Assembly (NCBI GenBank): GCA_020853775.1
Contig: JADYYH010000078.1
Location: 1 to 64,000, forward strand
Direction: 5' to 3'
Length of the DNA: 64,000 nt
Source of the DNA: Nitrospira sp.
Lineage (GTDB): Bacteria; Nitrospirota; Nitrospiria; Nitrospirales; Nitrospiraceae
Shown piece by piece: positions 1,818-19,541 of this stretch; the first letter of the stretch is position 1; each line of letters starts with the position of its first letter. The translations under genes and the position numbers were made by a program. Under the pieces are notes generated by a model that saw only the letters and a program-made list of their open reading frames with translations, had not been told where the DNA came from and did no database searches.

Positions 1818-1845
1818 TTGACAGCTGTTTTGGTGGGTGTATACT
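1818..1845 (+). promoter_or_regulatory. Sigma-70 promoter of the dcw cluster
   Basis: TTGACA (1818-1823), a 16-bp spacer and TATACT (1840-1845) match the housekeeping consensus closely. Transcription would start near 1852, just before the MraZ boxes and about 33 nt upstream of the rsmH start. No comparably strong promoter was noticed further into the cluster. Confidence 0.65.
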
Positions 1846-1857
1846 CCAGGCAATCTG

Positions 1858-1882
1858 TGGTGAAAAGTGGGCGAAAGTGGGT
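1858..1882 (+). promoter_or_regulatory. Three direct-repeat MraZ boxes
   Basis: TGGTG (1858-1862), TGGGC (1868-1872) and TGGGT (1878-1882) are spaced exactly 10 bp apart with purine-rich 5-nt linkers (AAAAG, GAAAG). This is the known arrangement of operator repeats bound by MraZ rings ahead of dcw clusters. The boxes lie between the promoter and the rsmH start, so MraZ binding could block transcription. The repressor gene usually precedes rsmH but is absent here; asnS occupies that side. Confidence 0.6.
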
Positions 1883-1884
1883 GT

Positions 1885-2808
1885 ATGGATTCTGCTCGCG
1901 GTTCCCATGAGCCGGTTTTAGTCGACGAGATCGTATTCTGGCTGCAGTGCAAACCAGGTGGAGTTTACGTGGACTGCACTCTCGGATATGCAGGGCTCGC
2001 TACCCGGATCCTTCATCACACCGCTCCAGATGGGATTCTCATCGGGATCGATCGCGATGCGGTGGCGCTCGAAGCATCCCGCGTGCGCCTGCAATACGTC
2101 ATGTCCCGGGTGCATCTCCGGCATGGAAATTTTTCGGAGCTCAAACCACTGGTCGCCCAGGTCGGAGTCCAGCATGCAGATGGTGTGATCTTCGATCTCG
2201 GTGTGTCCTCGCCGCAGCTCGACCGTCCGGAGCGGGGGTTCAGTTTTCGAGACGATGGCCCATTGGATATGCGCATGGATCAGAGCGAGGGACGCACGGC
2301 AGCCGACCTTATCCGAGAGATGCCCGAACGGGAATTGGCGGACGTGATCTATCAGTTTGGCGAGGAGCGGTATTCGCGCAGAATCGCCCGCGCGATCGTG
2401 GAGGCGAGAACGCAACGGGTCATTGGAACGACGAGAGAGCTAGCAGCGGTGGTGGAGCATGCCGTGCCGGCTCCATATCGGCATGGGCGAATCCACTGCG
2501 CCACACGGACTTTTCAGGCCTTACGGATTGCGGTGAACCGGGAATTGGACGTGCTCGAACCGGCGCTTCGCGATGCCGTGGATATTGTGGCGCCCGGAGG
2601 GCGAGTCTGTGTCGTGTCGTTCCATTCTCTTGAGGACAGAATCGTGAAGCATACGTTTCGGGCCTTGGCGAATGGCCCGGACGCTACAGTGAGAGTGCTG
2701 ACAAAAAAACCGGTCATCGCGTCGGACAGCGAGCGTGACCATAACCCGCGGTCGCGCAGCGCCAAGTTGCGTGTCGTGGAGCGGATGTCCAAGGAGTCTA
2801 TGCAATGA
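1885..2808 (+). CDS. rsmH: 16S rRNA (cytosine(1402)-N(4))-methyltransferase
   Basis: SAM-dependent enzyme that N4-methylates C1402 in the decoding centre of 16S rRNA; usually the first or second dcw gene. The N-terminus HEPVLVDEIVFWL and the glycine-rich SAM loop (VDCTLGYAGLATRIL) are typical, as are FDLGVSSPQLD, GPLDMRMD and the C-terminal VVSFHSLEDRIVK. An in-frame GTG at 1867 is rejected as start because it lies within the MraZ boxes; ATG 1885 gives 307 residues and begins just before the conserved HEPVL. The stop overlaps the ftsL start by 4 nt. Confidence 0.93.
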   Translation: MDSARGSHEPVLVDEIVFWLQCKPGGVYVDCTLGYAGLATRILHHTAPDGILIGIDRDAVALEASRVRLQYVMSRVHLRHGNFSELKPLVAQVGVQHADGVIFDLGVSSPQLDRPERGFSFRDDGPLDMRMDQSEGRTAADLIREMPERELADVIYQFGEERYSRRIARAIVEARTQRVIGTTRELAAVVEHAVPAPYRHGRIHCATRTFQALRIAVNRELDVLEPALRDAVDIVAPGGRVCVVSFHSLEDRIVKHTFRALANGPDATVRVLTKKPVIASDSERDHNPRSRSAKLRVVERMSKESMQ

Positions 2809-3137
2809 AAGCCGTTGCGTTTGCCGCGGTCACGTCGTTGGTGTTGCTCTTCGTGTGGGAACGGGTGGACATCGTTCGCATTGGCTACCACATCGAGCGA
2901 CTGAAGGCGCAAAAAGTGCTCCTCGAGCGCGAGCGGGATGAGCTGCAAGTTAAGCTGTCGGGCCTCACGGCGCCTGAACGGATCGCCCGTTTGGCCAGCG
3001 ACAAATTGGGCATGATGCAGCCGGAGAAGGGGCAGGTGGTCGTCATTAACTTTGAGCCGGAGACCCCTGCGAACCCTGTCGCCGCAGAAGGCGAAATCCG
3101 GATTGCGAAGAACATGGTCACCCGGAGAGCGCGATAG
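2805..3137 (+). CDS. ftsL: Cell division protein FtsL
   Basis: Small bitopic membrane protein of 110 residues: an N-terminal membrane span (about residues 4-19, AVAFAAVTSLVLLFVW) followed by a heptad-rich coiled coil (about 25-55) and a conserved end (RIARLASDKLGMMQPEKGQVV). This is the FtsL pattern; with FtsB and FtsQ it activates FtsWI septal synthesis. The family is poorly conserved in sequence, so identification leans on architecture, on the LGM-x-P-x-x-GQ-like segment and on position between rsmH (4-nt overlap) and ftsI (1-nt overlap). Confidence 0.85.
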   Translation: MKAVAFAAVTSLVLLFVWERVDIVRIGYHIERLKAQKVLLERERDELQVKLSGLTAPERIARLASDKLGMMQPEKGQVVVINFEPETPANPVAAEGEIRIAKNMVTRRAR

Positions 3138-4855
3138 TGGCTTCGACCTCCTTTCGTGGTCGCCGGATCCTGGTGGCCTGCGGGTTGTCGGGTGCGTTTA
3201 TCCTTGTGATTGTTCGCCTGGTGAATCTTCAGGTGATGCAATCCGCGGAGCTGACCGTCAAGGCGGACCGGCAACATCAGAAGAACGTGACGCTGGAGGG
3301 GGCGCGCGGCACCATTTACGATCGGAACAGCAAGGTGCTGGCGATGAACATGGACGTGCCGTCTGTGTTCGGTGTGCCTGCGTCGCTGGGTAACCCCGGA
3401 GTGGCGGCGCGCAATCTTTCGCCGATTTTGCATGTGAAAGCGACGGAACTCGAAAAAAAGTTGAAGCAGGAAAAGCATTTTGTCTGGCTGGCGCGAAAGC
3501 TGGAACCGGAGCAGGGGCGGCGGCTTGAACGGCTGGGGCTCGACGGCGTCGGTGTGGTGATGGAGGGACGGCGGTTCTACCCGAAGGGGCCGCTGCTGTC
3601 GCACGTGCTGGGGTTTGCCGGGATGGATGATCGCGGCCTGGAAGGCGTGGAGCTGCGCTACGAGCAGTATCTGCGGGGAGAAAAGCGTTCGGTCGTCTTG
3701 CAACGGGATGCCTTAGGGCGCGCGGTGTTTCCCAAGGGGTTGAATGAAGAGGGCGCCGCTGCCGGACATAGCCTCACGCTGACGGTCGACGAGGTGGTCC
3801 AATATATTGCCGAGAAGGAACTGGACGAGGCGGTGACGCGATCCAGCGCCAAGTCCGGCACGATGATCGTGATGGATCCCAGAACCGGCGCCGTGCTGGC
3901 CATGGCGGTGAGTCCACGGTTCGATCCCAACGCGGTCGGCGCGCTGGCTCCCGATCGATGGCGCAACCGGGCCTTGACCGACACCTACGAACCGGGCTCG
4001 ACCATGAAGGCCGTCATTGCGGCGGCGGCGCTCGAAGAAAAGGTCATGACCCCGGGCAGCATGATTTATGGAGAAAACGGGCAGTTCGCGATTGCCAATA
4101 CGATCATCCATGACCATGAGAAAGCCGGCTGGATGACGTTTGCGCAGATGATCCAAAAGTCGAGCAATATCGGCGCCGCGAAGGTCGGGATGGCGTTGGG
4201 TGAGTGGCGGGTGTTCGACTATTTGAAGGAGTTCGGTTTCGGAGATAAGAGCGGCATAGATCTGCCGGGTGAAACCGCCGGGTTGCTTCGAGGGCCTCGC
4301 CAATGGGGCAAACGCTCGTTGGCCTCCATTTCCATGGGGCAGGAGGTTGGCGTTACTCCATTACAGATGGTGACGGCGATCTCTGCCATCGCCAATGGTG
4401 GTGTCCTCATGAAGCCCTATGTCGTGTCGGAAATCAGGAATGGGAAGGGGCAATTGGTCGCGCAGAATATGCCGCAAGCCAAACGGCGAATCATCTCTGC
4501 GGACACCGCGCGGACATTGACGACCCTTCTTGAAGGAGTGGTGACCCACGGGACAGGCGGCAAGGCGGCCATTCCAGGCTTTCGCGTGGCGGGCAAGACC
4601 GGAACCGCTCAAAAAGTGGATCCTCGCACCGGCAAGTACTCTTCCACGCTCCTGGTCGGATCGTTTCTCGGGTATGCCCCTGCGGAAGATCCTCGGCTGG
4701 CCATGATTGTGGTGATCGATGAACCGCGCGGGGAAGGGTGGGGTGGCGTGGTCGCCGCTCCGGTGTTCCGGCGGGTCGGAGAGCAGGTGCTCAATTATCT
4801 GGGTGTCGCAGTGGATGAGCCGGTCAAGCTGGCTATGGCGGGTCTGGAATCCTGA
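3137..4855 (+). CDS. ftsI: Septal peptidoglycan transpeptidase (class B PBP, FtsI/PBP3)
   Basis: Monofunctional DD-transpeptidase that cross-links septal peptidoglycan with FtsW. Residues about 10-30 form a membrane anchor. The periplasmic part has the dimerisation motif RGTIYDRN and a penicillin-binding domain with all three catalytic motifs: S288-T-M-K291 (acylated serine), S342-S-N344 and K487-T-G-T490. At 572 residues without PASTA repeats it is of the FtsI type rather than the SpoVD/PBP2x type. It starts at GTG 3137, overlapping the last base of the ftsL stop, which implies translational coupling. murE begins one base after its stop. Confidence 0.94.
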   Translation: MASTSFRGRRILVACGLSGAFILVIVRLVNLQVMQSAELTVKADRQHQKNVTLEGARGTIYDRNSKVLAMNMDVPSVFGVPASLGNPGVAARNLSPILHVKATELEKKLKQEKHFVWLARKLEPEQGRRLERLGLDGVGVVMEGRRFYPKGPLLSHVLGFAGMDDRGLEGVELRYEQYLRGEKRSVVLQRDALGRAVFPKGLNEEGAAAGHSLTLTVDEVVQYIAEKELDEAVTRSSAKSGTMIVMDPRTGAVLAMAVSPRFDPNAVGALAPDRWRNRALTDTYEPGSTMKAVIAAAALEEKVMTPGSMIYGENGQFAIANTIIHDHEKAGWMTFAQMIQKSSNIGAAKVGMALGEWRVFDYLKEFGFGDKSGIDLPGETAGLLRGPRQWGKRSLASISMGQEVGVTPLQMVTAISAIANGGVLMKPYVVSEIRNGKGQLVAQNMPQAKRRIISADTARTLTTLLEGVVTHGTGGKAAIPGFRVAGKTGTAQKVDPRTGKYSSTLLVGSFLGYAPAEDPRLAMIVVIDEPRGEGWGGVVAAPVFRRVGEQVLNYLGVAVDEPVKLAMAGLES

Positions 4856-4856
4856 T

Positions 4857-6359
4857 ATGACGCTGGATGAATTGATCAGTCCCATTCAGGGGCGTCTTGG
4901 AGTGCTGGAGCGAAGCGGGGACCAACGTGTGCCGATCAGCACTCTGACGGATGATTCTCGCCAAGCCGCGCCGGGATGCCTCTTTGTCGCCGTGCAAGGA
5001 GAGCGGGTGGACGGCCACGAGTTCCTGGATCGGGTCGTGAAGGCGGGGGCAGCAGCGGTCGTGGTAGGACGCCACGTTGAAGTCGGATCGACGCCGTGCA
5101 TCCGCGTGCAGGATTCCCGGGCGGCGTTGGGAATTCTGGGCAGTCGATTTTATGGAGATCCTTCTGCCGCGCTCCGCATGATCGGCGTGACGGGGACGAA
5201 CGGCAAGACCACGACCACCTATGTCGTGAAAACCATGCTGGAGGCGGCGAATCGCCAGGTCGGTCTGATCGGCACGGTCGCTTATCTGGTCGGGAAAGAA
5301 TCGATCCCCGCCTCTCATACGACCCCCGGCGCGTTGGAGTTACAGAAATTATTTGCACGAATGGTCGAGAAGAGGTTGGATACGGTCGTCATGGAAGTGT
5401 CGTCTCACGCATTGGCCCTTGACCGAACCGCCGGCTCGGAATTCGATGTCGCCGTGTTTACCAACCTCACGCAGGACCACCTGGACTTCCATTTGGACAT
5501 GGAGCGGTATTTCCAGGCGAAGCGCAAGTTGTTTGCCGAGCTCGGCCAGCCTGGCGCACGTAAGCCGAAGAAACGTGCCATCATCAATGCGGATGATCCC
5601 TGGGGCGCACGGATCCGCGAGGCCTGCACGGTGCCGGTGTGGACCTATGGGCTCCATCAACAGGCGGATATTCATGCGGGTGAGGTGAAATTGTCCCCTG
5701 CCGGTACCAGTTTTACGTTGCGCACCCCGGCCGGCACGTGCGCGATCCAGAGCCGGCTGGTGGGAGAGCACAACGTGTCCAACCTGCTGGCCGCCATCGG
5801 CGTCGTCCTCCACGAAGGACTCACGCTGGAACAGGTGCGTGCCGCGGTGGGGGCCGTTTCCAATGTGCCGGGACGATTTGAGCGTGTGGAGGCGGGGCAG
5901 GACTTCACGGTGGTCGTGGACTATGCCCATACCGAAGACGCATTGGTCCGGTTGCTGACGGCCGCTCACGCTCTACGTACAGGGCGAATCATTACCGTAT
6001 TCGGATGCGGCGGGGATCGGGACCGCACGAAGCGTCCGAAAATGGGACGCGTCGCCGTTCAGCATAGTGATGTGGTCATCCTGACTTCGGACAATCCGCG
6101 CACAGAAGACCCGGCCTTCATTCTGAGCGAAGTCGAGGTCGGGGTGAAGGACGCGCTGGCCGCTCGGGGCCATGTGCGGTATCGGATGATCGCGGATCGC
6201 CGGGCAGCCATCGAGGCGGCCATCGACGAGGCCAAAGCCGGCGATATGGTGTTGATAGCGGGGAAGGGCCACGAAGATTATCAGGTCGTGGGGACGACGA
6301 AACATCACTTCGACGATCGGGAAGTGGCGCGCGAGATGATCCAGGCGCGCCGGTCCTGA
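4857..6359 (+). CDS. murE: UDP-MurNAc-L-Ala-D-Glu:meso-diaminopimelate ligase
   Basis: Cytoplasmic Mur ligase that adds the third stem-peptide residue. The central ATPase motif is GVTGTNGKTTTTYV. The C-terminal domain has SDNPRTEDP, where DNPR is the known signature for meso-diaminopimelate rather than lysine, so the wall is of the DAP type. An N-terminal uridine-binding domain precedes it (LTDDSRQAAPGCLFVAVQG). ATG 4857 gives 500 residues, normal for the family; upstream in-frame codons lie inside ftsI and are not used. It follows ftsI at 1 nt and precedes murF by 18 nt. Confidence 0.95.
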   Translation: MTLDELISPIQGRLGVLERSGDQRVPISTLTDDSRQAAPGCLFVAVQGERVDGHEFLDRVVKAGAAAVVVGRHVEVGSTPCIRVQDSRAALGILGSRFYGDPSAALRMIGVTGTNGKTTTTYVVKTMLEAANRQVGLIGTVAYLVGKESIPASHTTPGALELQKLFARMVEKRLDTVVMEVSSHALALDRTAGSEFDVAVFTNLTQDHLDFHLDMERYFQAKRKLFAELGQPGARKPKKRAIINADDPWGARIREACTVPVWTYGLHQQADIHAGEVKLSPAGTSFTLRTPAGTCAIQSRLVGEHNVSNLLAAIGVVLHEGLTLEQVRAAVGAVSNVPGRFERVEAGQDFTVVVDYAHTEDALVRLLTAAHALRTGRIITVFGCGGDRDRTKRPKMGRVAVQHSDVVILTSDNPRTEDPAFILSEVEVGVKDALAARGHVRYRMIADRRAAIEAAIDEAKAGDMVLIAGKGHEDYQVVGTTKHHFDDREVAREMIQARRS

Positions 6360-6377
6360 CGCTCAGCGAGGCCTGAC

Positions 6378-7841
6378 ATGCGGGAGCATGGACATCGTGG
6401 CGTAATGGCGTTGTTTACAGTCGAAGAAATCTGTGAAGTGTTGAGCGCCAAGTCGCCGACGGGCTTGAGTCCACAGGATCTGAAGCAGCGGATTCGACGC
6501 GTGGTGACCGATTCCCGTCTGGTGCGAAAAGGCGATGTGTTCATTGCCTTGCAGGGGGATCGATTCGACGCGCATACTTTCGTGCCGAAAGTCTTTGCGC
6601 AAGGCGCCGTCTGTGCCATCGTGCAGGAAGACTACCGTCTCCCTCCGATGAAGCCGCGAACCGGCACCCCCATTGTGCTTGGTGTGCGGGATACGCTCGA
6701 AGCCTTCCAGCGTTTGGCGACACACTACCGCAACCGGTTTGCCATCCCGATCATCGCCATCACGGGAAGCAACGGCAAGACGACGACGAAAGAAATGGTC
6801 GCCCAGGTGGTCGCGCAACGCTGGAAAACCCTCAAGACCGAAGGCAATCTCAACAATCGCATTGGCGTGCCGCAGACCTTGTTTCAATTGGCGCCACGGC
6901 ACCAGGCGGCAGTCATCGAAATGGGCGTAGATCAGCAGGGGCAAACGACCCGGCTGTGCGAAATCGCGAGACCGACGATCGGCGTGATTACGAATATCGG
7001 GCCGGACCATTTGGAATTTTTCGGCAGCATGGAAGGGTCCGCCCAAGCCAAAGCCGAATTGCTCGACCATCTGCCGCAAGACGGCGCCGTGGTCTTGAAC
7101 GCAGACGATGAGTACTTTGATTATCTGGCGTCCAGGGCGCAATGCCGGGTGGTCGCGTTCGGTGCGTCACCCAAGGCCGCCGTTCGTGCCGCGAATATTC
7201 GAACCGATGAAAAAGGCGGGACGATCTTCGGACTCATTTTGCCGGGCAAAAGCCGCCAGGCCGAGGTTCGTATCCGGACGCAGGGGCAACACAATGTGAG
7301 CAATGCCCTTGCGGCGGCCGCCGTGGGACATGCCCTGGGTCTCTCCGGCGCCGCCATCGCTGAAGGGTTGGCGAAGTTTCGTCCGGCCGCGATGCGATCA
7401 CAGATCAGCCAGTCGCACGGGGTGCAGGTGATCAACGATTGTTACAACGCCAATCCCGCATCGATGAAGGCCGCTGTTCAGCTCCTGGCACAGTTGGGGC
7501 GGGACAAACGATCTATCGCGGTTTTGGGCGACATGCTGGAGTTAGGGGCGGATACCAAACGCATGCATCGGGAAGTCGGGGTGTTTCTGGCCGGGCAAGG
7601 GATCGGGCACCTGTTGGCCTGTGGTGTCTTAGGCCAGGAATTGGCGGCGGGTGCGCGCCAAGCGGGCATGCCGGCCGATCGGATTGCCGAATTGCCGGAC
7701 GCTCACGCGGCCGCCGCGGCCGTGGCACGTATGATCCGGCAAGGCGATGTCGTGCTGGTCAAGGCCTCGCGCGGGATGCGGATGGAACAGGTCGTGGACG
7801 CCCTGACCGGCATGCGGCGAGCGGCGAAAAAAGCCTGTTAG
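6378..7841 (+). CDS. murF: UDP-MurNAc-tripeptide--D-Ala-D-Ala ligase
   Basis: Last cytoplasmic Mur ligase: adds D-Ala-D-Ala to the UDP-MurNAc tripeptide using ATP. Seen: N-terminal substrate domain (VTDSRLVRKGDVFIALQG), P-loop ITGSNGKTTTKEM, ENLNNRIGVP-like EGNLNNRIGVPQTLF, HNVSNALAAAA, and NDCYNANPASM, all family hallmarks. The length is 487 residues. The chosen ATG has a GAGG Shine-Dalgarno 6 nt upstream; an internal Met at 6405 is the alternative and matches the usual N-terminus (MALFTVEEI). Confidence 0.94.
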   Translation: MREHGHRGVMALFTVEEICEVLSAKSPTGLSPQDLKQRIRRVVTDSRLVRKGDVFIALQGDRFDAHTFVPKVFAQGAVCAIVQEDYRLPPMKPRTGTPIVLGVRDTLEAFQRLATHYRNRFAIPIIAITGSNGKTTTKEMVAQVVAQRWKTLKTEGNLNNRIGVPQTLFQLAPRHQAAVIEMGVDQQGQTTRLCEIARPTIGVITNIGPDHLEFFGSMEGSAQAKAELLDHLPQDGAVVLNADDEYFDYLASRAQCRVVAFGASPKAAVRAANIRTDEKGGTIFGLILPGKSRQAEVRIRTQGQHNVSNALAAAAVGHALGLSGAAIAEGLAKFRPAAMRSQISQSHGVQVINDCYNANPASMKAAVQLLAQLGRDKRSIAVLGDMLELGADTKRMHREVGVFLAGQGIGHLLACGVLGQELAAGARQAGMPADRIAELPDAHAAAAAVARMIRQGDVVLVKASRGMRMEQVVDALTGMRRAAKKAC

Positions 7842-7897
7842 CCATACTTAAAGGAATGTAGCATCCGCCGATCCATGGCGGGCAAAGAAGCCGTAGG

Positions 7898-8974
7898 ATG
7901 TTGTACAACTGGCTCTACCCTCTTCATACACAGTTTTCGTTCCTGAACGTGTTTCGCTACCAGAGTTTCCGGATCATCTACGCCGCGGTCACCGCGTTTC
8001 TCATTGCCTTCGTGATGGCGCCCTGGGTCATCCGGAAATTGCAGGAGATTAAACTCGGCCAACAGATTCGCGACGACGGGCCGAAGCGGCATTTGGCCAA
8101 GAGCGGGACGCCGACGATGGGCGGCATTCTCATTATCTTTGCGGTCGTGCTGTCCACGCTGTTGTGGGCCGACATGACCAATCGCTACGTCTGGTTGGTG
8201 GTGGTGGCGACCGTGGGTTTCGGCGCCGTGGGATTTGCCGACGACTATTTGAAATTCATCAAGCGGCAGTCGAAGGGACTGTCAGTGGCGCAAAAGTTTG
8301 CCGGACAATTTCTGGTCGCCTTGGCCATCGGCGTCTTTCTCTACACCCTCCCGAGCTACACGACGAAACTCAGCGTCCCGTTCTTCAAGTTTTTCACGCC
8401 TGATCTGGGCTGGTTCTACATTGTGTTCGTCATTCTTGTCATCGTCGGCAGTTCCAATGCCGTCAATTTGACGGACGGCCTCGATGGCTTGGCGATCGGC
8501 CCCGTCATGATCGCCTCGCTGGCCTATACGATCGTGGCCTATGTGACCGGCAATCGCGTGATGGCCGAATATTTGCTTATCCCGTACATCGAAGGCGCGG
8601 GAGAAATTGCCATTTTTACCGGCGCGATTTTAGGGTCGAGTCTGGGCTTTCTCTGGTTCAACACGTACCCGGCCTCGGTCTTCATGGGCGATGTGGGGTC
8701 GCTTCCATTAGGCGCGGCATTGGGAACGGTGGCGGTGATCAGCAAACATGAACTGCTGCTCCTCCTGGTCGGCGGCGTGTTCGTCATCGAAGCCTTGTCG
8801 GTCATCTTGCAGGTGGCATCCTATAAATTGCGGGGGAAGCGCATTTTCAATATGGCTCCGATCCACCATCATTTTGAGATGAAGGGCTGGGACGAGCCCA
8901 AGGTCGTCGTGCGTCTGTGGATCATTGCCATATTGTTGGCCTTGCTGAGCTTGAGCACGCTCAAACTGCGGTAG
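7898..8974 (+). CDS. mraY: Phospho-N-acetylmuramoyl-pentapeptide-transferase
   Basis: Integral membrane enzyme that transfers phospho-MurNAc-pentapeptide from UDP to undecaprenyl phosphate, making lipid I. It has 358 residues with about ten hydrophobic segments. Active-site signatures are present: [18 protein letters not shown] (Asp pair), [13 protein letters not shown] and [14 protein letters not shown]. Key residues all appear intact. It follows murF by 56 nt with only a weak purine-rich ribosome site (AAGAAG). Confidence 0.95.
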
Positions 8975-8984
8975 ACGGGAACGC

Positions 8985-10373
8985 ATGAACGTCAAAGATC
9001 TCCAGGTCACGGTGGTCGGGCTCGCGAGGAGCGGCGTGGGGGCTGCGCGGCTCTTGAATCATCTCGGGGCACGGGTGACTGTCGCCGACCGGAAAGAGCC
9101 GCAGGAACTCACGGCCATTCTCTCGCAGCTGGACCAGTCGAGTATTGCTGTCCGGGTGGGGGCGCCGTATGAATCGGCGCTGGAGAGCGCGGATCTTGTG
9201 GTGATTAGCCCAGGAGTGCCGACTCAGTTGGAGGCGCTCAACCGCGTGCGTGCCCGCGGCGTCCGAGTGATCGGGGAACTGGAACTGGCGTCACGGTACA
9301 TAACGGCGCCGGTCGTGGCGGTGACCGGAACCAACGGAAAAAGCACCACGGTGACTTTGATCGGCAAATTCTTGCAGGAGAGTGGAAAGCGCGCCTTCGT
9401 CGGCGGCAATCTGGGTATCGCCGCCAGTGAAGCGGCCCTGGCCTGTGTCCAGGCCAAGCCGGGCAGCCCTGCGCCGTATGAGTATGTGGTGCTGGAAACC
9501 TCCAGCTTTCAGCTTGAAACGATCGAACAGTTCCATCCGTACATCGCCTCGATTCTGAACGTGACGCTCGACCATATGGACCGCTACAGTTCGGTGGAAG
9601 ACTATGTGGCGGCCAAGGCGCGGATCTTCGCTAACCAAACCGCCGGTGACTATTCCCTCTTCAATCTGGACGATACGCGAGTCGCTGCGCTGCGCGGGAA
9701 TACGAAAGCCGCCGTCCTCGGCTTCAGCCGCAGCGGGGCCACGGTGTCCGGCGTGGCGGGGGCCACGGTCCTGGACGGCGACCTGATCGTGACGACGGTG
9801 CGGGGACAACGCGAGGAGATCTGTCGCCGGAGCGACATGCGGCTGATCGGCCTGCACAATGTGGAAAATGTGATGGCGGCCGTGACGTACGGTCTGCTCT
9901 GCGGTTGTTCCATCGAGGCGATACGCAGCGTGCTGCGCTCGTTCCCCGGGCTGGAGCATGCCCTGGAAGTGGTGCGCGAGCGGCGAGGCGTCCGCTATGT
10001 GAATGATTCCAAAGGCACGAATGTCGATGCCGTGTTAAAAGCGCTCGAAGGCATTGAACAGCCGATCTGGTTGATCGCCGGTGGCCGTGACAAGGGCGGA
10101 GATTTTTCCCGTCTGGAAGGGGCGATACGGGAACGGGTGAAGGGACTCATTGTGATCGGTGAGGCGGCGGGCCGCATTCAGGCGGCGATGGGTGATTTTG
10201 ACCGATGTCGTCCTGCAGCGACACTCCGCGACGCCGTGGAGCTTGCTGCTCGCGAGGCGCAGCCCGGTGAGGTGGTCTTACTCTCGCCGGCCTGCGCCAG
10301 TTTCGACATGTTCGCGGACTACCAAGACCGGGGCCGGCAATTCAAGGCCTTGGTGCAGGCGCTTCCGGCGTGA
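8985..10373 (+). CDS. murD: UDP-N-acetylmuramoylalanine--D-glutamate ligase
   Basis: Cytoplasmic Mur ligase that adds D-glutamate to UDP-MurNAc-L-Ala. An N-terminal Rossmann-like domain ([15 protein letters not shown]) is followed by the ATPase loop [33 protein letters not shown] and the C-terminal [11 protein letters not shown] and [12 protein letters not shown], all MurD diagnostic. Length 462 residues is normal. It starts 10 nt after mraY; ftsW follows after 35 nt. Confidence 0.95.
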
Positions 10374-10408
10374 GGCCGGGAGTGGCATGGAGGAACGACA
10401 GCTGAACG

Positions 10409-11626
10409 ATGGCACAGCATGCGCTCGGGACACTGACGTTGCCCTGGTCGACCTCGACTCAGCGGACATCCAAGCGCGTGCCGGTGGATCCGGCACTCCT
10501 GGCCGTGACGCTTATCCTCGCCCTCATAGGGGTGGTGATGGTGTTCAGCGCCAGTGCCGTGGTGGCGGGCAACCGCTTTCACGATCCCTGGTATTTTCTC
10601 AAGCGGCAGGTTGCCTGGCTGGGCGCCGGCCTGCTGGTGATGCATCTCATCTCGAAGATCGACTACACGATCTGGAAGAAGCTGGCGATTCCGCTGCTGT
10701 TCGGCACGACCGTGCTGTTGGTGCTGGTGCTCGTGCCGTCGCTCGGCAATGTCGCCAAAGGGGCGAGGCGGTGGTTGCACTTGGGGCCGATCAACATTCA
10801 ACCGGCCGAGGTGGCGAAATTCGTGGCCGTCATTTACGCCGCAGCCTATCTGACCAAGAAGCAGGATCAGATTACGCAGTTCGCGCGGGGGGTGTTGCCG
10901 CCGCTGATCGTCATCGGCTTGCTGAGCGGGTTGGTGCTGCTGGAACCGGATCTGGGAACCGTGGTGGTCATGGGGCTCGTGGTGGTGACCCTGCTGTTCT
11001 TGGCAGGGGCGCGGATCAAGCACCTTGGGATCCTGTCCTTGTGCGCCTTGGCGGGGGTGGCAGCGCTCATCCTGACGTCACCGTACCGGTGGAAACGGTT
11101 TCTGATGTTCTTGGATCCTACGAAAGACCCTTCTGGAGCGGGCTTTCAGATCACGCAGTCATTTCTAGCCTTTGGGAGCGGCGGTCCATTCGGGGTGGGG
11201 TTGGGAGAGGGGAAACAGAAATTATTCTTTCTGCCGGAGGCGCACACCGATTTTGTGCTCGCGCTGGTCGGCGAAGAGTTGGGATTGTTGGGCACCGTGA
11301 CGATCATGCTGCTATTCGGTTTGTTTGTGATCAAAGGATTTCAGGTTGCGGGCCGGGCGCGGCATCCCTTCGGGCGGCACCTGGCGATGGGCATCACGAT
11401 GTTGATCGGCATGCAGGCGCTGGTCAATGCAGGTGTGGTCACAGGGCTGTTACCCACGAAGGGATTGACGTTGCCCTTCGTCAGTTACGGAGGCTCTTCG
11501 CTGGTAGCCAATCTGTTCGGCGTAGGGATTCTGTTGAACATCTCGCGCGACCGACAGGGCGGGCACCGCGGGCAGGAGAGCGGCGGATCTCGAGGCGCGC
11601 GAAAACGCGGGGTGATCACGGAATGA
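10409..11626 (+). CDS. ftsW: Lipid II glycosyltransferase FtsW (SEDS family)
   Basis: Polytopic inner-membrane peptidoglycan polymerase of the septum, partner of FtsI. About ten membrane spans are visible. SEDS hallmarks include VFSASAVVA in the first span region, LEPDLGT, the loop GRGFQ-like SGAGFQITQSFLAFGSGG, LPEAHTDFVLALVGEELG and the C-terminal LPFVSYGGSSL. A 405-residue length fits FtsW. RodA is a homologue, but the dcw context settles the assignment. The stop overlaps the murG start (ATGA, 4 nt). The C-terminal tail is basic and Gly/Arg-rich. Confidence 0.94.
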   Translation: MAQHALGTLTLPWSTSTQRTSKRVPVDPALLAVTLILALIGVVMVFSASAVVAGNRFHDPWYFLKRQVAWLGAGLLVMHLISKIDYTIWKKLAIPLLFGTTVLLVLVLVPSLGNVAKGARRWLHLGPINIQPAEVAKFVAVIYAAAYLTKKQDQITQFARGVLPPLIVIGLLSGLVLLEPDLGTVVVMGLVVVTLLFLAGARIKHLGILSLCALAGVAALILTSPYRWKRFLMFLDPTKDPSGAGFQITQSFLAFGSGGPFGVGLGEGKQKLFFLPEAHTDFVLALVGEELGLLGTVTIMLLFGLFVIKGFQVAGRARHPFGRHLAMGITMLIGMQALVNAGVVTGLLPTKGLTLPFVSYGGSSLVANLFGVGILLNISRDRQGGHRGQESGGSRGARKRGVITE

Positions 11627-12744
11627 CTATCGTGATTGCAGCAGGTGGCACAGGCGGGCATCTGTATCCGGCCATCGCCGTGGCGCGTGAATTTTTGCGG
11701 CGAGACCCATCGACTCGTATCCTGTTCGTCGGGACGACGCGTGGTATCGAGCAAAAGGTGCTGGCCCATGAAGGGCTCCCGTTGCGGTGTATCACGGCGC
11801 ATCCATTCATGGGCAAAAGTCCGATTGAGATGATAAAGGCGCTGCTCATCTTGCCGGTCAGTTTGTGGCAATCGCTTGGCGTGCTGAAACAGCAGAGCGC
11901 TGATCTGGTGTTCGGTGTGGGAGGATACACCAGCCCAGCGATGCTGGTAGCAGCCTTCTTGCGGCGCATTCCCGGCGTGATTCTGGAACCGAATGCCTAT
12001 CCGGGCATGGCGAACAAAACCGTCGCGCCGCTCGTGCAACGCATTTTCCTGGCGTTCGAGTCCACGAAACAATTTTTTGATCGGCAAAAAACGAGTGTGG
12101 TTGGCACACCGGTGCGGCAGGCGTTTTTAGCATCGTCCGTCCCCGAGGCGGCACGGAGTGAGACCGGAGCGCTGCGGCACCTGTTGGTGTTCGGGGGAAG
12201 TCAGGGCGCCAAGGCCATCAACTCGGCGATGATCGATGCGTTGCCCATGCTGGCGACCCTGACGACGCGACTGGCCATTACGCATCAAACCGGTGAAGCG
12301 GATCATGCCCGGGTTGCGGCCGCCTATCAACAGGCGGGAATATCCGCGCAGGTCGTCCCATTTCTCTACGACATGCCCACGGCGCTCCGCGCCGCGGATC
12401 TCGTGGTGGCGCGAGCCGGTGCCATGACGATTGCCGAATTGACCGTGTGTGGAAAGCCGGCGATTCTGATCCCGCTTCCCACGGCGATCTACAATCATCA
12501 GTTGCGGAACGCCGAAGTGATGGCGAAGGCGGGCGGAGCCCTGCTGCTCCCACAAGCGGAGTTGACCGGGGCGGGGCTGGCGCATGCCGTGACGGCAATT
12601 CTCGGCGATCCCCAATGTTTGGAAACCATGAGCCGGCATAGCTGGAATATGCGGCGCAGCGATGCGGCCGAAACCATCGTGCGTGAATGTTATGACGTCA
12701 TAAGGAGGCGCCATGAGGCCAGCGACAGCGCTCGCGCCCTATGA
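11623..12744 (+). CDS. murG: UDP-GlcNAc--lipid I N-acetylglucosaminyltransferase
   Basis: Peripheral membrane GT-B enzyme that adds GlcNAc to lipid I to form lipid II. N-terminal GGTGGHLYPAIAVA, VGGYTSPAML and the C-terminal UDP-GlcNAc site (GGSQGAKAIN; ARAGAMTIAEL; IPLPTAIYNHQLRNA) are all present. It has 373 residues. The start ATG 11623 is fixed by the 4-nt overlap with the ftsW stop; longer in-frame extensions run through ftsW and murD and are not real. Its 3' end overlaps the preferred murC start by 32 nt. Confidence 0.94.
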   Translation: MTIVIAAGGTGGHLYPAIAVAREFLRRDPSTRILFVGTTRGIEQKVLAHEGLPLRCITAHPFMGKSPIEMIKALLILPVSLWQSLGVLKQQSADLVFGVGGYTSPAMLVAAFLRRIPGVILEPNAYPGMANKTVAPLVQRIFLAFESTKQFFDRQKTSVVGTPVRQAFLASSVPEAARSETGALRHLLVFGGSQGAKAINSAMIDALPMLATLTTRLAITHQTGEADHARVAAAYQQAGISAQVVPFLYDMPTALRAADLVVARAGAMTIAELTVCGKPAILIPLPTAIYNHQLRNAEVMAKAGGALLLPQAELTGAGLAHAVTAILGDPQCLETMSRHSWNMRRSDAAETIVRECYDVIRRRHEASDSARAL

Positions 12745-14209
12745 ACAGCGAGAGCGGCAGAGACAGCAACAGGATCGAAACAGCGGACAGCGATCATTCC
12801 GAGGACAGGAGCTAAGGCGGACGGCGATGTTCAGAAAGACACAACATATCCATTTGGTAGGCATCGGCGGATCCGGCATGAGCGGCATCGCCGAGGTGCT
12901 GTTGACGCTCGGGTACAAGGTCAGCGGGTCAGACCTCAGCCAATCGGAAACGACGCGCCGGCTTGAAGAACTTGGCGGGCGCATTGCTATCGGACACCAC
13001 GAGGCCAATATCGGTGAGGCCCAGGTAGTGGTGATTTCCTCCGCGGTGGCGGCGACCAATCCCGAAGTCGTGGCGGCGAAAGCGCGCCAGATCCCGGTCA
13101 TCCCTCGCGCCGAAATGTTGGCCGAGCTCATGCGGTTGAAGTTCGGCGTCGCGATTGCCGGGGCGCACGGCAAAACCACCACGACGTCGATGGTGGCTAA
13201 TGTGCTGGCCCAGGGCGGATTGGACCCGACCATGGTCATCGGCGGCAAGGTCAATGCGTTGGGAAGCCATGCTCGCCTGGGCCGTGGCGATCTTCTCATC
13301 GCGGAAGCGGACGAAAGCGACGGGTCGTTTCTGCGCCTGGCGCCCACCATCGCCGCGGTCACCAATATCGATCGCGAACATCTGGACCACTATGGGAGCA
13401 TGGAGCGGCTCAACGACAGTTTTCTTGAATTCGTGAACAAGGTTCCGTTTTACGGGTTGGCTGTGCTCTGTTCCGACGACGAACGGCTGCGCGCTTTGTT
13501 GCCGCGGGTGGTGAAACGGTACCAGACCTACGGGTTGAACGAACATCCCGATCACGTGCCGGATTTTCGGGCGACCGACATCAGCTTGCGGCAATGGGGA
13601 TCGGAGTTTCGCGTCTTCTTCCGCGGGCGCAACCTGGGCCCGTTCCGGTTGGCGATCCCCGGCATCCACAACGTGTCGAATTCACTCGTCGCCATTGCAA
13701 TCGGCATGGAGTTGGATATTCCGGTCGATCTGATCCGGAAGGGCCTCGCCGCGTTCAGTGGTGTGGAGCGACGGTTTCATCTGCGCGGGGAAAAGGCCGG
13801 TATCATGGTCGTGGACGACTACGGCCATCATCCCACCGAAGTGCGCGCCACCATCGCCGCGGCCAAGCAGGGCTGGGAGCGGCGAGTGGTTGTGCTCTTT
13901 CAACCTCACCGCTATAGCCGCTCGCGCGATCTGATGCAGGAATTTTCCCATGCGTTCGACCAGGCCGATGCGCTGTTTATGACGGAGATTTATGCGGCCG
14001 GTGAACAGCCGATTCCCGGCGTGTCGGGCGCGAAGCTGGTGGAAGCCGTGAAGACAGCCGGGCATCCTTCGGCCACTTTTGTGGAGCGCAAGGAAACCCT
14101 GGCGGAGCAGGTGCTGCCGACGCTGAAGTCGGGTGACCTTGTGATCACCCTCGGCGCGGGAGATATCTGGAAGGCGGGGTTGGCCATCCTCGATCGATTA
14201 CCGGCCTGA
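12713..14209 (+). CDS. murC: UDP-N-acetylmuramate--L-alanine ligase
   Basis: First Mur ligase: ATP-dependent addition of L-alanine to UDP-MurNAc. Signature stretches: HIHLVGIGGSGMSGIAEVL, AGAHGKTTTTSM, AEADESDGSFL, NIDREHLDHYG and DDYGHHPTEV. The start is ambiguous. ATG 12713 has a near-perfect AAGGAGG 4 nt upstream and gives 498 residues with an odd Gln/Arg-rich N-terminal tail of 38 residues. ATG 12827 has a weaker site but starts where most MurC proteins do (MFRKTQHIHLVG). I list the start favoured by the ribosome site. Confidence 0.92.
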   Translation: MRPATALAPYEQRERQRQQQDRNSGQRSFRGQELRRTAMFRKTQHIHLVGIGGSGMSGIAEVLLTLGYKVSGSDLSQSETTRRLEELGGRIAIGHHEANIGEAQVVVISSAVAATNPEVVAAKARQIPVIPRAEMLAELMRLKFGVAIAGAHGKTTTTSMVANVLAQGGLDPTMVIGGKVNALGSHARLGRGDLLIAEADESDGSFLRLAPTIAAVTNIDREHLDHYGSMERLNDSFLEFVNKVPFYGLAVLCSDDERLRALLPRVVKRYQTYGLNEHPDHVPDFRATDISLRQWGSEFRVFFRGRNLGPFRLAIPGIHNVSNSLVAIAIGMELDIPVDLIRKGLAAFSGVERRFHLRGEKAGIMVVDDYGHHPTEVRATIAAAKQGWERRVVVLFQPHRYSRSRDLMQEFSHAFDQADALFMTEIYAAGEQPIPGVSGAKLVEAVKTAGHPSATFVERKETLAEQVLPTLKSGDLVITLGAGDIWKAGLAILDRLPA

Positions 14210-14230
14210 GGGGGATGAGAGGCGGGAACG

Positions 14231-15163
14231 GTGTCACGTGTGGCGCGGAAAGAGCAATCGGCGAGAACGAGGAAAGACTGGGCGCGCATCCTTGAGGGAA
14301 TTCGTGGAACGATCACGTACGAGGCGTCGTTGCAATCCTATACGTCGTTCCGCATCGGGGGACCGGCCGAAGTCCTGGTGGAGCCGGCCGATGTGGAGGA
14401 TGTGTGCCGGGTGGTGGCGCAGGCTCACGCCGAACGCCTCCCGATTTTCGTGGTGGGTGGGACGAATCTGCTCGTTCGTGACGGGGGAATCCGCGGGCTC
14501 GTGCTCAGCCTCCGGCAGCTCAAAGCCATTCGCCAGGAGCCGGGAGCTGTCCTCTATGCGGAGGGGGGCGTGGGCATGCCGACATTGATCGGGTATGCGA
14601 TCCGGCGCTCCCTGGCAGGATTGGAATGGGGCGCGGGCATTCCCGGCACGGTGGCCGGTTGCGTCGTCATGAACGCGGGCACGCGCCTAGGTGAAATGAA
14701 GGATTCGGTCAAGGCCGTGCGCATGGTGGATCCGAAGGGACGAGTGATGGACATTCCGGCTGCGGACATCCCCTTCAGTTACCGGAAGGCGCATCTTCCG
14801 CGCGGGATCGTGGCCGGAGTCTGGCTGCAGTTGAAGCCCGGGGCGCATGACCAGATCGAAAAAACCGTGAAGGACTATTTGCAGTATCGCAAAAACACGC
14901 AGCCGTTGACGCTGCCGAGTGCCGGTTGCGTGTTCAAGAATCCTCCGCAGGATTCCGCCGGCCGTTTGGTGGACGTCGCGGGCCTCAAGGGCGCACGTGT
15001 GGGCGATGCACAGGTCTCGGAGAAGCACGCGAATTTCATGGTGAATCTGGGGCATGCGCGCGCTGTGGATGTGCTGGCCTTGATCAGGAAAGTCCGCGCA
15101 GGAGTGAAAAAAGCCTCGGGCGTCACGCTGGAATTGGAATTGAAGGTGGTCGGTCAGGCCTGA
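14231..15163 (+). CDS. murB: UDP-N-acetylenolpyruvoylglucosamine reductase
   Basis: FAD- and NADPH-dependent enzyme that reduces UDP-GlcNAc-enolpyruvate to UDP-MurNAc. FAD-binding motifs TSFRIGGPAEVLVEP and FVVGGTNLLVRDGGIRG are clear, with GIPGTVAG and the catalytic-serine segment LPSAGCVFKNP. The shorter C-terminal domain and 310 residues indicate a type II (Bacillus/Thermotoga-like) MurB. It starts with GTG 14231; another GTG 9 nt on is possible. It sits between murC (21 nt) and ddl. Confidence 0.93.
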   Translation: MSRVARKEQSARTRKDWARILEGIRGTITYEASLQSYTSFRIGGPAEVLVEPADVEDVCRVVAQAHAERLPIFVVGGTNLLVRDGGIRGLVLSLRQLKAIRQEPGAVLYAEGGVGMPTLIGYAIRRSLAGLEWGAGIPGTVAGCVVMNAGTRLGEMKDSVKAVRMVDPKGRVMDIPAADIPFSYRKAHLPRGIVAGVWLQLKPGAHDQIEKTVKDYLQYRKNTQPLTLPSAGCVFKNPPQDSAGRLVDVAGLKGARVGDAQVSEKHANFMVNLGHARAVDVLALIRKVRAGVKKASGVTLELELKVVGQA

Positions 15164-15181
15164 CGCAGATCGACGAATGGA

Positions 15182-16171
15182 GTGGATGTGACGGAACGGA
15201 AGCCGCTGACTCGTTCGAAAATCGGGGTATTGATGGGAGGCCAGTCGTCGGAGCGCGAAGTTTCCCTCAAGACAGGCGAAGCCGTGTATCGGTCGCTTGT
15301 GCGCAGCGGTTACGATGCGGTGGCTATCGATGTGGACGCGGGGTTATCCCAGACCTTGCAACAACAGGCGATCGAAGTGGCCTTCCTGGCTTTACATGGA
15401 CCAGGCGGAGAAGACGGCGCCATCCAGGGGTTTCTGGAAACGATCGGTATTCCTTATACGGGATCCGGTGTGCGCGCCAGCGCCGTCGGCATGCATAAGG
15501 TGGTGACCAAAACGGAACTGGCGGCCCATGGCATTCCGGTGCCCCGTGGCACCGTGGTGTGGCGGGGAACCGCGCCTACGTTAAAACGTGTCCTGACCAG
15601 TTGCAAATTGAAGTTGCCGATTGTCGTGAAACCGGCAAGCCAGGGGTCCACCATCGGCGTCACCATCGTTCGCCAAGCGTTGCAATGGAAAGAGGCGCTC
15701 AAGGTCGCCCATCGATACGATCCGGAGGCGATGGTCGAGGCCTTTATCCCTGGACATGAAGTCACGTTGTCGTTGTTGGGGGCTGCCGATGGGACGGTGG
15801 TAGGCTTGCCTGCCGTGGAGATTGTGGCGCCAGACGGGTTTTACGATTTCTCGGCGAAGTATGAGAAGGGCCGCACGCAGTATCTCTGCCCGGCGCCGCT
15901 CTCCTCCGCCGTGAACCGCGAGATCAAGCAGCTGGCTATCCGCACCTATCAGGCCTTGGGCTGCAACGGAGCGGCGCGGGTCGATTTCCGGATCACGCCA
16001 AAGGGCAAGCCGTATGTGCTGGAAATCAATACGGTTCCGGGGATGACGGAGACGAGTCTGTTGCCGATGGCGGCAGGCAAAGCGGGTCTCTCGTACGATG
16101 CGTTGACGGAACAGATCCTCCAATCTGCCCTCCGGCGGGCCGGAACGGGATCATTTCGAGCCGTGAGGTAA
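15182..16171 (+). CDS. ddl: D-alanine--D-alanine ligase
   Basis: ATP-grasp ligase that makes D-Ala-D-Ala for MurF. N-terminal VLMGGQSSEREVSLKTG, HGPGGEDGAIQGFLE, the ATP-grasp segment KPASQGSTIGVT and the C-terminal metal site LEINTVPGMTETSLLPMAA are all present; 329 residues. It starts with GTG (15182, or GTG 15188). The stop is followed 2 nt later by ftsQ, a standard dcw order. Confidence 0.94.
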   Translation: MDVTERKPLTRSKIGVLMGGQSSEREVSLKTGEAVYRSLVRSGYDAVAIDVDAGLSQTLQQQAIEVAFLALHGPGGEDGAIQGFLETIGIPYTGSGVRASAVGMHKVVTKTELAAHGIPVPRGTVVWRGTAPTLKRVLTSCKLKLPIVVKPASQGSTIGVTIVRQALQWKEALKVAHRYDPEAMVEAFIPGHEVTLSLLGAADGTVVGLPAVEIVAPDGFYDFSAKYEKGRTQYLCPAPLSSAVNREIKQLAIRTYQALGCNGAARVDFRITPKGKPYVLEINTVPGMTETSLLPMAAGKAGLSYDALTEQILQSALRRAGTGSFRAVR

Positions 16172-16173
16172 CC

Positions 16174-17043
16174 ATGCCACTCAGGTGGCGGAACGCGCGA
16201 CCAGCCAAACTCAACCCGCGGGCGAATGCCCGTTCGGATTCAAGTCTGGAGCGCCGTCGTGGCGGGGCGACAGGCGGTTACTGGTCCCGGCTGGGACGTG
16301 GCCTGCTGATTTCACTGCGCGTCATGGCGACCATGACGGTCTTGGTCGGCGGTTGTTCAGGGCTCTTTGTGCTGGCGCGCGAAATCGGGCCGCTGACACG
16401 CGAATGGTTTCTGGTGCGCTCGGTGTCGGTGAATGGTCTGCATCATGTGACTCGAAAGGAAGTGATCGGCCGGCTGGCGCTCAAACCGGATACCGCGCTC
16501 TATTCCATCAATCCGACGTGGTTGGCGGACCGGATCAAGACCCATCCCTGGATCAAGGACGCGACCGTGGTGTTAAAGCCGTTGCACGAAATCCATATCG
16601 ACATCGTCGAGCGGGAGCCGGCGGTGGTGGTGCGCACGCTGGCAGAAAACCTGCTCACCGATTCGGAGGGGGTGTTGCTCGCACGCCTCGGGTCCAGCGA
16701 CGATCCGACGCTGCCCATTTTGTCGGGTGTCGACGGCAAGCGGCTGGCGCAGGGCAAGGCCGAGGATCGTCGTCCCGTGCAGGTGGGTGCCGCGTTGGCG
16801 CGCATGGTCGGTCAGACCACCGGCGGGCGGCCGGACATCAATGTGGGCAACTTGAATAACCTGGTGGTCGAGGTACAGGGCGTCACGTTTCAGTTCAGTG
16901 AGTCGTCGATGAATCAGCAATGGTCTCGGTTTTTGAAAATGCGGCCCGCACTGCGTGATGTGGCCTTTGACGGCGAGGGCGCCAGAGCGAATGAAATCGA
17001 TCTTCGCTTTGCCGACCGCGTCATTGTTCGGGGAAGGGGGTGA
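16174..17043 (+). CDS. ftsQ: Cell division protein FtsQ
   Basis: Bitopic divisome protein linking cytoplasmic and periplasmic division complexes through FtsB and FtsL. It has a basic cytoplasmic N-terminus (about residues 1-45), one membrane span (about 47-70), then a POTRA domain (FLVRSVSVNGLHHVTRKEV to about residue 150, with HPWIKDATVVLKP) and the FtsQ beta domain. The length is 289 residues. The family diverges in sequence; the POTRA plus position before ftsA make the call secure. The stop overlaps ftsA (GTGA). Confidence 0.88.
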   Translation: MPLRWRNARPAKLNPRANARSDSSLERRRGGATGGYWSRLGRGLLISLRVMATMTVLVGGCSGLFVLAREIGPLTREWFLVRSVSVNGLHHVTRKEVIGRLALKPDTALYSINPTWLADRIKTHPWIKDATVVLKPLHEIHIDIVEREPAVVVRTLAENLLTDSEGVLLARLGSSDDPTLPILSGVDGKRLAQGKAEDRRPVQVGAALARMVGQTTGGRPDINVGNLNNLVVEVQGVTFQFSESSMNQQWSRFLKMRPALRDVAFDGEGARANEIDLRFADRVIVRGRG

Positions 17044-18284
17044 GCCGAGTGTCTAAGCGGGATCATATCCTGGTCGGGCTCGATATCGGAACGACCAAGA
17101 TTTGCGCCATTGTCGCCGAAGTGCCGGAGGAGGGCCCGCTGAACATCATCGGTGTCGGCTCCTGTCCCTCGCGCGGGCTTCGTAAGGGTGTCGTGGTCAA
17201 CATCGAGAGTACCGTGGAATCGATCAAAAAAGCGGTCGAGGAAGCGGAACTCATGGCGGCCGTGCAGATTAATTCGGTGTACACCGGAATTGCCGGGAGC
17301 CACATTTCCGGAGAAAACCTCAAAGGCGTCGTGGCGCTCAAGAAACAGGAAGTTACGCGCGACGACATCAGCCGTGCGGTGGAGAGCGCGCGCACGCTGG
17401 CCGTCATTCCGCATGAGCGGCGCATTCTGCATGTGCTGCCGCGCGAGTTCATGGTGGACGACCAAGAAGGGGTGCGTGAGCCGCTGGGCATGTCCGGAAA
17501 CCGGCTTGAGGTCAATGTGCATGTCATCACGGGTGCGGTGACCTCCGCTCAAAACATCATCAAGAGCGTCAATCGGGCCGGCCTCGACGTCGTCGATATC
17601 ATCCTGCAGCCGCTGGCCTCGAGCGAAGCGGTGTTGAGCGCGGAGGAACGCGAACTTGGCGTCGCCATGGTGGATCTCGGCGGCGGTACCACCGACCTCG
17701 CCATTTTCCTCGACGGCAGCATCCGGCATACGGCGGTCCTTCCGATCGGCGGACAGAATCTCACGAAAGATCTCGCGATCGGCTTGCTGACGTCGCAAAC
17801 CGACGCGGAAAAAATCAAAGTGCAACATGGCATCGCTCGCACCGAACTGGTCCACGGGCATCAGATGGTCGAGGTGCCCTCGGTCGGCGACCGACCGCCG
17901 CGGCAATTCACGCGTCGCGACATTGCGGAAATTCTGGAGCCGCGCGTCGAAGAAATGTTCGATCTCGTCAAACGCGAAATCGTGCGGGCCGGGTATGAAG
18001 GCATGCTCGGCGCGGGAGTGGTGATTACGGGTGGAACTTCGCTCTTGGAAGGCATGCCGGATGCGGCGGAACGCGGGCTGAATCTGCCGGCTCGCCGCGG
18101 CGCGCCGACCGGTATCGGCGGATTACGGGATATTGTCAGCAACCCGATGCATGCGACCGGCGTCGGGCTGTTACTCCACGCGCGTCAACATGCCGACAAC
18201 TTGGAGGCTGCCGGCATTCGTCACGGCAAAGGCTTGGGGAAAGTGTTCGCTCGCATGCGATCGTGGATGTTCGAATTTTTCTAA
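17040..18284 (+). CDS. ftsA: Cell division protein FtsA
   Basis: Actin-like ATPase that tethers FtsZ filaments to the membrane. Nucleotide-binding motifs: phosphate 1 (GLDIGTTKICAIVAEV), phosphate 2 (AMVDLGGGTTDLAIF) and adenosine (VVITGGTSLLEGMPD). The 1C domain specific to FtsA lies at about residues 85-165. The extreme C-terminus (RMRSWMFEFF) forms the amphipathic membrane-targeting helix. The length is 414 residues. It starts at GTG 17040, overlapping the ftsQ stop, with GGAAGGGG just upstream. Confidence 0.95.
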   Translation: MSRVSKRDHILVGLDIGTTKICAIVAEVPEEGPLNIIGVGSCPSRGLRKGVVVNIESTVESIKKAVEEAELMAAVQINSVYTGIAGSHISGENLKGVVALKKQEVTRDDISRAVESARTLAVIPHERRILHVLPREFMVDDQEGVREPLGMSGNRLEVNVHVITGAVTSAQNIIKSVNRAGLDVVDIILQPLASSEAVLSAEERELGVAMVDLGGGTTDLAIFLDGSIRHTAVLPIGGQNLTKDLAIGLLTSQTDAEKIKVQHGIARTELVHGHQMVEVPSVGDRPPRQFTRRDIAEILEPRVEEMFDLVKREIVRAGYEGMLGAGVVITGGTSLLEGMPDAAERGLNLPARRGAPTGIGGLRDIVSNPMHATGVGLLLHARQHADNLEAAGIRHGKGLGKVFARMRSWMFEFF

Positions 18285-18289
18285 CTGTT

Positions 18290-18314
18290 GCGGACGGCTT
18301 CAGGCCGCGTCCGC
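18290..18314 (+). other. Hairpin in the ftsA-ftsZ intergenic gap
   Basis: GCGGACG (18290-18296) pairs perfectly with CGTCCGC (18308-18314) across an 11-nt loop, 6 nt after the ftsA stop and just before the ftsZ ribosome site. There is no T-run, so it is not an obvious terminator. It may be a processing or stability element that lets FtsZ be made in excess of FtsA; that role is inference. Confidence 0.35.
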
Positions 18315-18338
18315 GCCATCGCCAAGGGAGGTGCCACA

Positions 18339-19541
<1,203 letters not shown>

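Follow-up and report, generated by a model that had tools for sequence, protein, structure and literature searches.

What reads an array of MraZ-type repeats that stands directly ahead of rsmH when mraZ itself is not beside it? The cellular role of MraZ is still unsettled and, because mraZ, its operator and its targets usually occupy one stretch of DNA, cis and feedback effects of the protein are hard to separate. The window analysed here, 64,000 nucleotides long, is the start of contig C78 in a draft genome of 4.25 Mb. An initial annotation of the window had described the repeats and the missing gene, and had left two options: mraZ has moved elsewhere, or another protein uses the site. Our analysis makes it highly probable that MraZ acts in trans on the dcw cluster via the retained operator, without box-mediated autoregulation.

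Direct reading of the sequence places TGGTG (1858-1862), TGGGC (1868-1872) and TGGGT (1878-1882) at exact 10-bp steps between a sigma70-like promoter and rsmH, so that the three TGGKN repeats originally described at 1858-1882 are indeed there. The -35 and -10 elements of this promoter are separated by a spacer of 16 bp, and the first GTG of the array, at 1857, lies 11 nt past the -10. The array fits the site published for Mollicutes MraZ, given as (AAAGTGKN3)3 in the available portions of PMC5282649, in its GTG core, its direct repeats and its 10-bp period. Box 1 is the weakest copy, with two mismatches to AAAGTGK. The window has one match to TGGK-N6-TGGK-N6-TGGK, where 100 dinucleotide shuffles average 0.03 (two of them had at least one match), and the 4.25-Mb genome, both strands counted, has no further one. 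As the reversed control pattern matches twice in the genome, uniqueness by itself is weak evidence, and the evidential weight of the array lies in its position and conservation rather than in its uniqueness. Another pattern, AAGTGGGNNAAGTGGG, gave no result, its spacing being wrong.

Table 1. Features at the head of the dcw cluster (window coordinates).
Feature	Position	Strand	Basis
asparagine--tRNA ligase, gene upstream of the promoter	273-1571		
-35 TTGACA, dcw promoter	1818..1823	+	sequence read; promoter function inferred
-10 TATACT, dcw promoter	1840..1845	+	sequence read
MraZ box 1 (putative), TCTGTGG, GTG core 1857-1859	1855..1861	+	sequence and PMC5282649 consensus (available portions)
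MraZ box 2 (putative), AAAGTGG, GTG core 1867-1869	1864..1870	+	exact AAAGTGK
MraZ box 3 (putative), AAAGTGG, GTG core 1877-1879	1874..1880	+	exact AAAGTGK
rsmH	1885..2808	+	TIGR00006, 347.8 bits, cut-off 154.3
remainder of dcw cluster, ftsL to ftsZ	2805..19541	+	

Just upstream of rsmH, the usual place of mraZ is taken by the gene for asparagine--tRNA ligase, as the claim of a missing mraZ implied. Downstream, rsmH is followed by ftsL, an ftsI-type transpeptidase gene, murE, murF, mraY, murD, ftsW, murG, murC, murB, ddl, an ftsQ-type gene, ftsA and ftsZ, with which the cluster ends, and mraZ is absent from the whole of it (rsmH through ftsZ, 1885-19541). The FtsL call is marginal (Pfam 23.4 bits, cut-off 22.9), the ftsI ORF matched several transpeptidase models, each below its own cut-off, and the ftsQ-type call is based on a POTRA domain. 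For rsmH there is an alternative start besides the main ATG at 1885, an in-frame GTG at 1867 inside the box array, use of which would place part of the array within the gene.

A search of the genome with the PF02381 profile located a single two-domain mraZ on another contig, C70, which fits the first of the two options, a move elsewhere. A second match to PF02381, on C12, was rejected: it scores 21.4 bits, below the cut-off, contains one internal stop and overlaps, in another frame, an ORF of 511 aa taken by eye for glycogen synthase. The window itself begins with a 215-bp element (1-215) bounded by a perfect 12-bp terminal inverted repeat (1-12 and 204-215, by eye). This element has 28 matches in the genome, many of which are 96-100% identical and located at contig ends, and it therefore seems to break the assembly. 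The mraZ contig C70 also ends in a copy.

The separation of the two genes is general in the family. Among 59 family genomes of at least 90% completeness (f1), rsmH was found in all and mraZ in 57, and comparison of the listed places puts mraZ beside rsmH in none of these 57. The distance between them is about 332-414 kb in the single-contig genomes G001, G010, G023, G025, G048 and G051, and about 300 kb in G114, which is also a single contig. In this sample mraZ was not found in G003 and G006. Assembly gaps explain these absences better than loss of the gene: in G003, comF and the RusA-like gene are unmatched as well, and the comF of G006 is 289 bases away from a contig end. In G005 comF is likewise unmatched, yet mraZ is present. 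The two genes are also apart in all five genomes of the order's other family (f2).

Outside the order the arrangement is different. Of 73 genomes sampled there, we dropped G083 and G091 (no rsmH match) and G079 and G122 (no mraZ place among the matches listed); in all 69 that remained to be scored, mraZ precedes rsmH on the same strand at a distance of at most 700 bp, among the matches listed. Upstream DNA was inspected for ten of the 69, and in all ten the repeats precede mraZ, in imperfect form in G121 and G136. As a wider bacterial control, we took 80 rsmH loci of named genomes and retained the 78 with at least 550 bp upstream, dropping two shorter ones. mraZ adjoins rsmH in 63 of them, with the repeats before mraZ in 58 of the 63 by a permissive pattern. 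Among the other 15, repeats at rsmH are kept only in two, both Nitrospirales: L142, where the pattern found them, and L141 (Nitrospira sp. CR1.2), where they were recognized by eye and the first core reads GCGG. At the rsmH loci examined, none of the 13 non-Nitrospirales cases without adjacent mraZ has them. Because the boxes stand at rsmH in the order, while outside it mraZ adjoins rsmH and the repeats precede mraZ, it appears that mraZ left the gap between operator and rsmH. The ancestor of the order would have had mraZ in that gap, like the rest of the phylum. The gene would then have vanished from the dcw head, the promoter and repeats staying behind directly ahead of rsmH, and a two-domain mraZ would now reside near comF, hundreds of kb off.

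Conservation of the boxes was examined in 58 of the 59 family upstream regions, G006 being dropped because of its contig end. The TTGAC/GTATA promoter anchors the alignment of 57 of these; G030 was anchored by the -10 alone, its -35 being hidden by N. The -10 is kept as GTATACT, GTATATT and near variants, and the first GTG follows it at 7-13 nt in all 58 members and at 9-11 nt in 51. Of the 58 members, 55 have GTGG and two have GCGG as box 1, 56 have GTGG as box 2, and 55 have xTGG as box 3. Within about 200 bp upstream of rsmH, the relaxed pair GTGG-N6-[AG]TGG is present in 57/58 members against a shuffle mean of 1.04, and the triple in 51/58 against 0.015. The strict TGGK triple of the initial annotation occurs in only 21 of the 59 upstream regions, and the conserved form is the relaxed one. 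Before mraZ, neither pair nor triple occurs within 0-200 bp upstream in any of the 57 family genomes, the pair is likewise missing over 350 bp, and the five f2 genomes have no pair there either. As the present mraZ is without boxes, box-mediated MraZ feedback has probably been lost. The genome thus holds a mraZ and the repeats are conserved in relatives (the pair in 57/58), the two points on which the initial annotation had made its proposal depend; the comparison it had suggested, with relatives that keep mraZ next to rsmH, came out in the ten outgroup loci as repeats preceding mraZ.

The position of the repeats, in the presumed 5' leader beside the start codon and with the in-frame GTG at 1867 among them, could also mean that they are retained for leader RNA, translation start or early transcription and not for protein binding. 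We regard this as very unlikely. Retention of box 3 as a start codon is rejected, since it could be used as an in-frame ATG/GTG start in just 8 of the 58 members. The same array heads mraZ in the outgroups, so it is not tied to the start of rsmH, and the 13 non-Nitrospirales loci without adjacent mraZ do not show the pattern at rsmH. Phasing of 10 bp is, moreover, typical of a protein binding along one face of the DNA.

A strict search for AAGTGG-N4-AAGTGG returned 38 sites over the 59 family genomes against 64 sites for the reversed control. By hand count, 26 of the 38 are at rsmH (in 25/59 genomes) and 12 elsewhere. The 12 sites away from rsmH, set against 64 control sites, give no sign of a wider MraZ regulon in the 59 genomes, and from these counts rsmH is the sole target backed by conservation. 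In f2 the boxes at rsmH are clear in G098, G103 and G125 and decayed in G131 (L127) and G134 (L129), though mraZ is kept elsewhere in both; these two genomes may be natural cases of operator loss. Such decay shows that loss is possible, and the displaced MraZ is divergent, as described below, which together would suit an operator that is a relic used by no protein, the moved MraZ having other targets. However, the pair is kept in 57 of 58 family members while the leader sequence flanking the boxes varies among them, and no other conserved strict site is apparent in the 59 genomes. A relic is accordingly a very improbable reading.

The mraZ of the window genome encodes a protein of 146 residues with two MraZ domains (PF02381, 95.7 bits in two stretches, cut-off 23). 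Against TIGR00242 it scores 87.1 bits, and this is still its best model; because the equivalog cut-off of 98.35 is missed, we name it a divergent MraZ. It has the motifs DEKGR and DKAGR, which correspond to a D-x-K-x-R loop in one domain and a D-x-x-x-R loop in the other, both putatively DNA-contacting. Its residues 4-133 align with solved Mollicutes MraZ chains. In a chosen subset of family genomes (62 pairs, dS 0.05-1.5), mraZ has a median dN/dS of 0.062 (range 0 to 0.187), and the gene is under strong purifying selection in the family.

The origin of the displaced gene is less clear. In a tree of 102 MraZ sequences, the 29 displaced ones form one clade (support 100/100; stem length 1.73 changes per column), which is separate from the 10 Nitrospirota MraZ whose genes adjoin rsmH. 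It is possible, though somewhat doubtful, that the native gene disappeared and that an mraZ of foreign origin, inserted near comF, adopted the old operator, a xenologous replacement that would be compatible with control in trans. The separate clade argues for it. On the other side, a tree forcing all Nitrospirota MraZ together was not rejected (p-AU 0.108; 24 versus 28 rows), the 52-row tree having excluded eight long-branch rows and half of the other outside rows; the stem is long, the trees have about 145 usable columns, no donor is apparent, and a fast-evolving relocated native copy explains the tree equally well. The shared comF neighbourhood of mraZ in the two families of the order, with comF directly before mraZ in f2, would fit one event before they split.

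The genes around mraZ are comF, fmdB, a RusA-like gene and, in many family members, an HTH_17 gene directly before mraZ (65 aa, PF12728 62.5 bits; for example L012:1062-1259 and L018:1287-1484), whose motif is present in 23 of the 31 family loci with flank. This offers a candidate for the other option of the initial annotation, a protein different from MraZ that reads the repeats, here a small HTH_17 protein of excisionase type. The closeness of the gene to mraZ and the failure of the C70 MraZ to reach the TIGR00242 cut-off lean that way, but we consider it improbable. The HTH_17 motif was not found near mraZ in the genome of the window, which has intact boxes, nor in the nearest relatives of that genome. 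We know of no model in which HTH_17 proteins bind direct repeats with a 10-bp period. Outgroups with mraZ in place carry the same repeats before mraZ, and the repeats match the MraZ site in the available portions of PMC5282649.

Control in trans by MraZ is the reading that we prefer. By analogy with known MraZ sites, the C70 protein most likely binds the boxes in trans, at or just past the transcription start, and such binding would set initiation of the dcw operon. Several observations count against it. The boxes at rsmH are decayed in two of the five f2 genomes (G131 and G134), box 1 is imperfect in the window and reads GCGG in 2/58 family members, and the strict pattern is present at rsmH in just 25 of 59 genomes. 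The sub-threshold TIGR00242 score and the long stem also mean that the DNA specificity of this divergent MraZ could have changed. A broader proposal, that in the whole order MraZ control has changed from self-limiting feedback to open-loop regulation of one target in trans, MraZ itself being perhaps a foreign replacement, we hold tentatively, as slightly less probable than its opposite. If it is true, MraZ made from its new neighbourhood reads a single conserved operator at rsmH, and dcw expression would follow whatever controls the comF/fmdB/HTH_17/RusA-like neighbourhood.

In Nitrospira and its relatives, operator and gene thus occur apart from each other, and each of them is conserved across the family genomes sampled. 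This natural separation offers a comparison between dcw control with autoregulation and dcw control that lacks it; it also argues for an operator that serves the remainder of the cluster and not mraZ alone. A kept operator and a distant mraZ make remote dcw control testable.

Among the titles and abstract openings of the matches listed, in a search limited to non-subscription literature, nothing was found that describes, for the Nitrospira group, an mraZ displaced from an operator that stayed behind, and the mraZ-naming passages of a paper on dcw evolution (PMC8871954) are silent on Nitrospirota. The components are already known, and it is their arrangement, a displaced mraZ with a retained operator, that appears new.

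Eraso et al. (2014) reportedly described MraZ and the operator of the Escherichia coli mra promoter. That operator resembles the Nitrospira one in its direct repeats, which recur every 10 bp past the -10 at the dcw head. In E. coli, however, mraZ is first behind the operator and controls itself, whereas in Nitrospira that place belongs to rsmH, and mraZ, at its other locus, has no boxes. The available portions of PMC8475190 call E. coli MraZ a repressor. The Mollicutes site shares the core and the 10-bp period of the Nitrospira array (PMC5282649, available portions). In M. genitalium, the only chromosomal copy of the MraZ site is at the division cluster, as the same portions of PMC8475190 state, but it lies within the promoter of mraZ itself. 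For Burkholderia and E. coli, the accessible passages of PMC7761207 place the MraZ repeats downstream of the -10. The Pmra of Burkholderia cenocepacia is similar to our array in that its repeats are seven nucleotides long, are spaced by 3 nt and follow the -10, and it differs in having four repeats that lie over a mapped start site, before mraZ, with binding proven by EMSA.

The Neisseriaceae offer a parallel for a dcw cluster that is not headed by mraZ, to judge from the accessible passages of PMC9395523. There, some members lost mraZ; in Neisseria elongata, deletion of mraZ lowered and ectopic mraZ raised dcw transcripts. The difference from Nitrospira is that the gene was lost, or moved by engineering, and that MraZ acted as an activator. 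Since ectopic mraZ changed dcw transcripts in N. elongata, action of MraZ in trans is possible.
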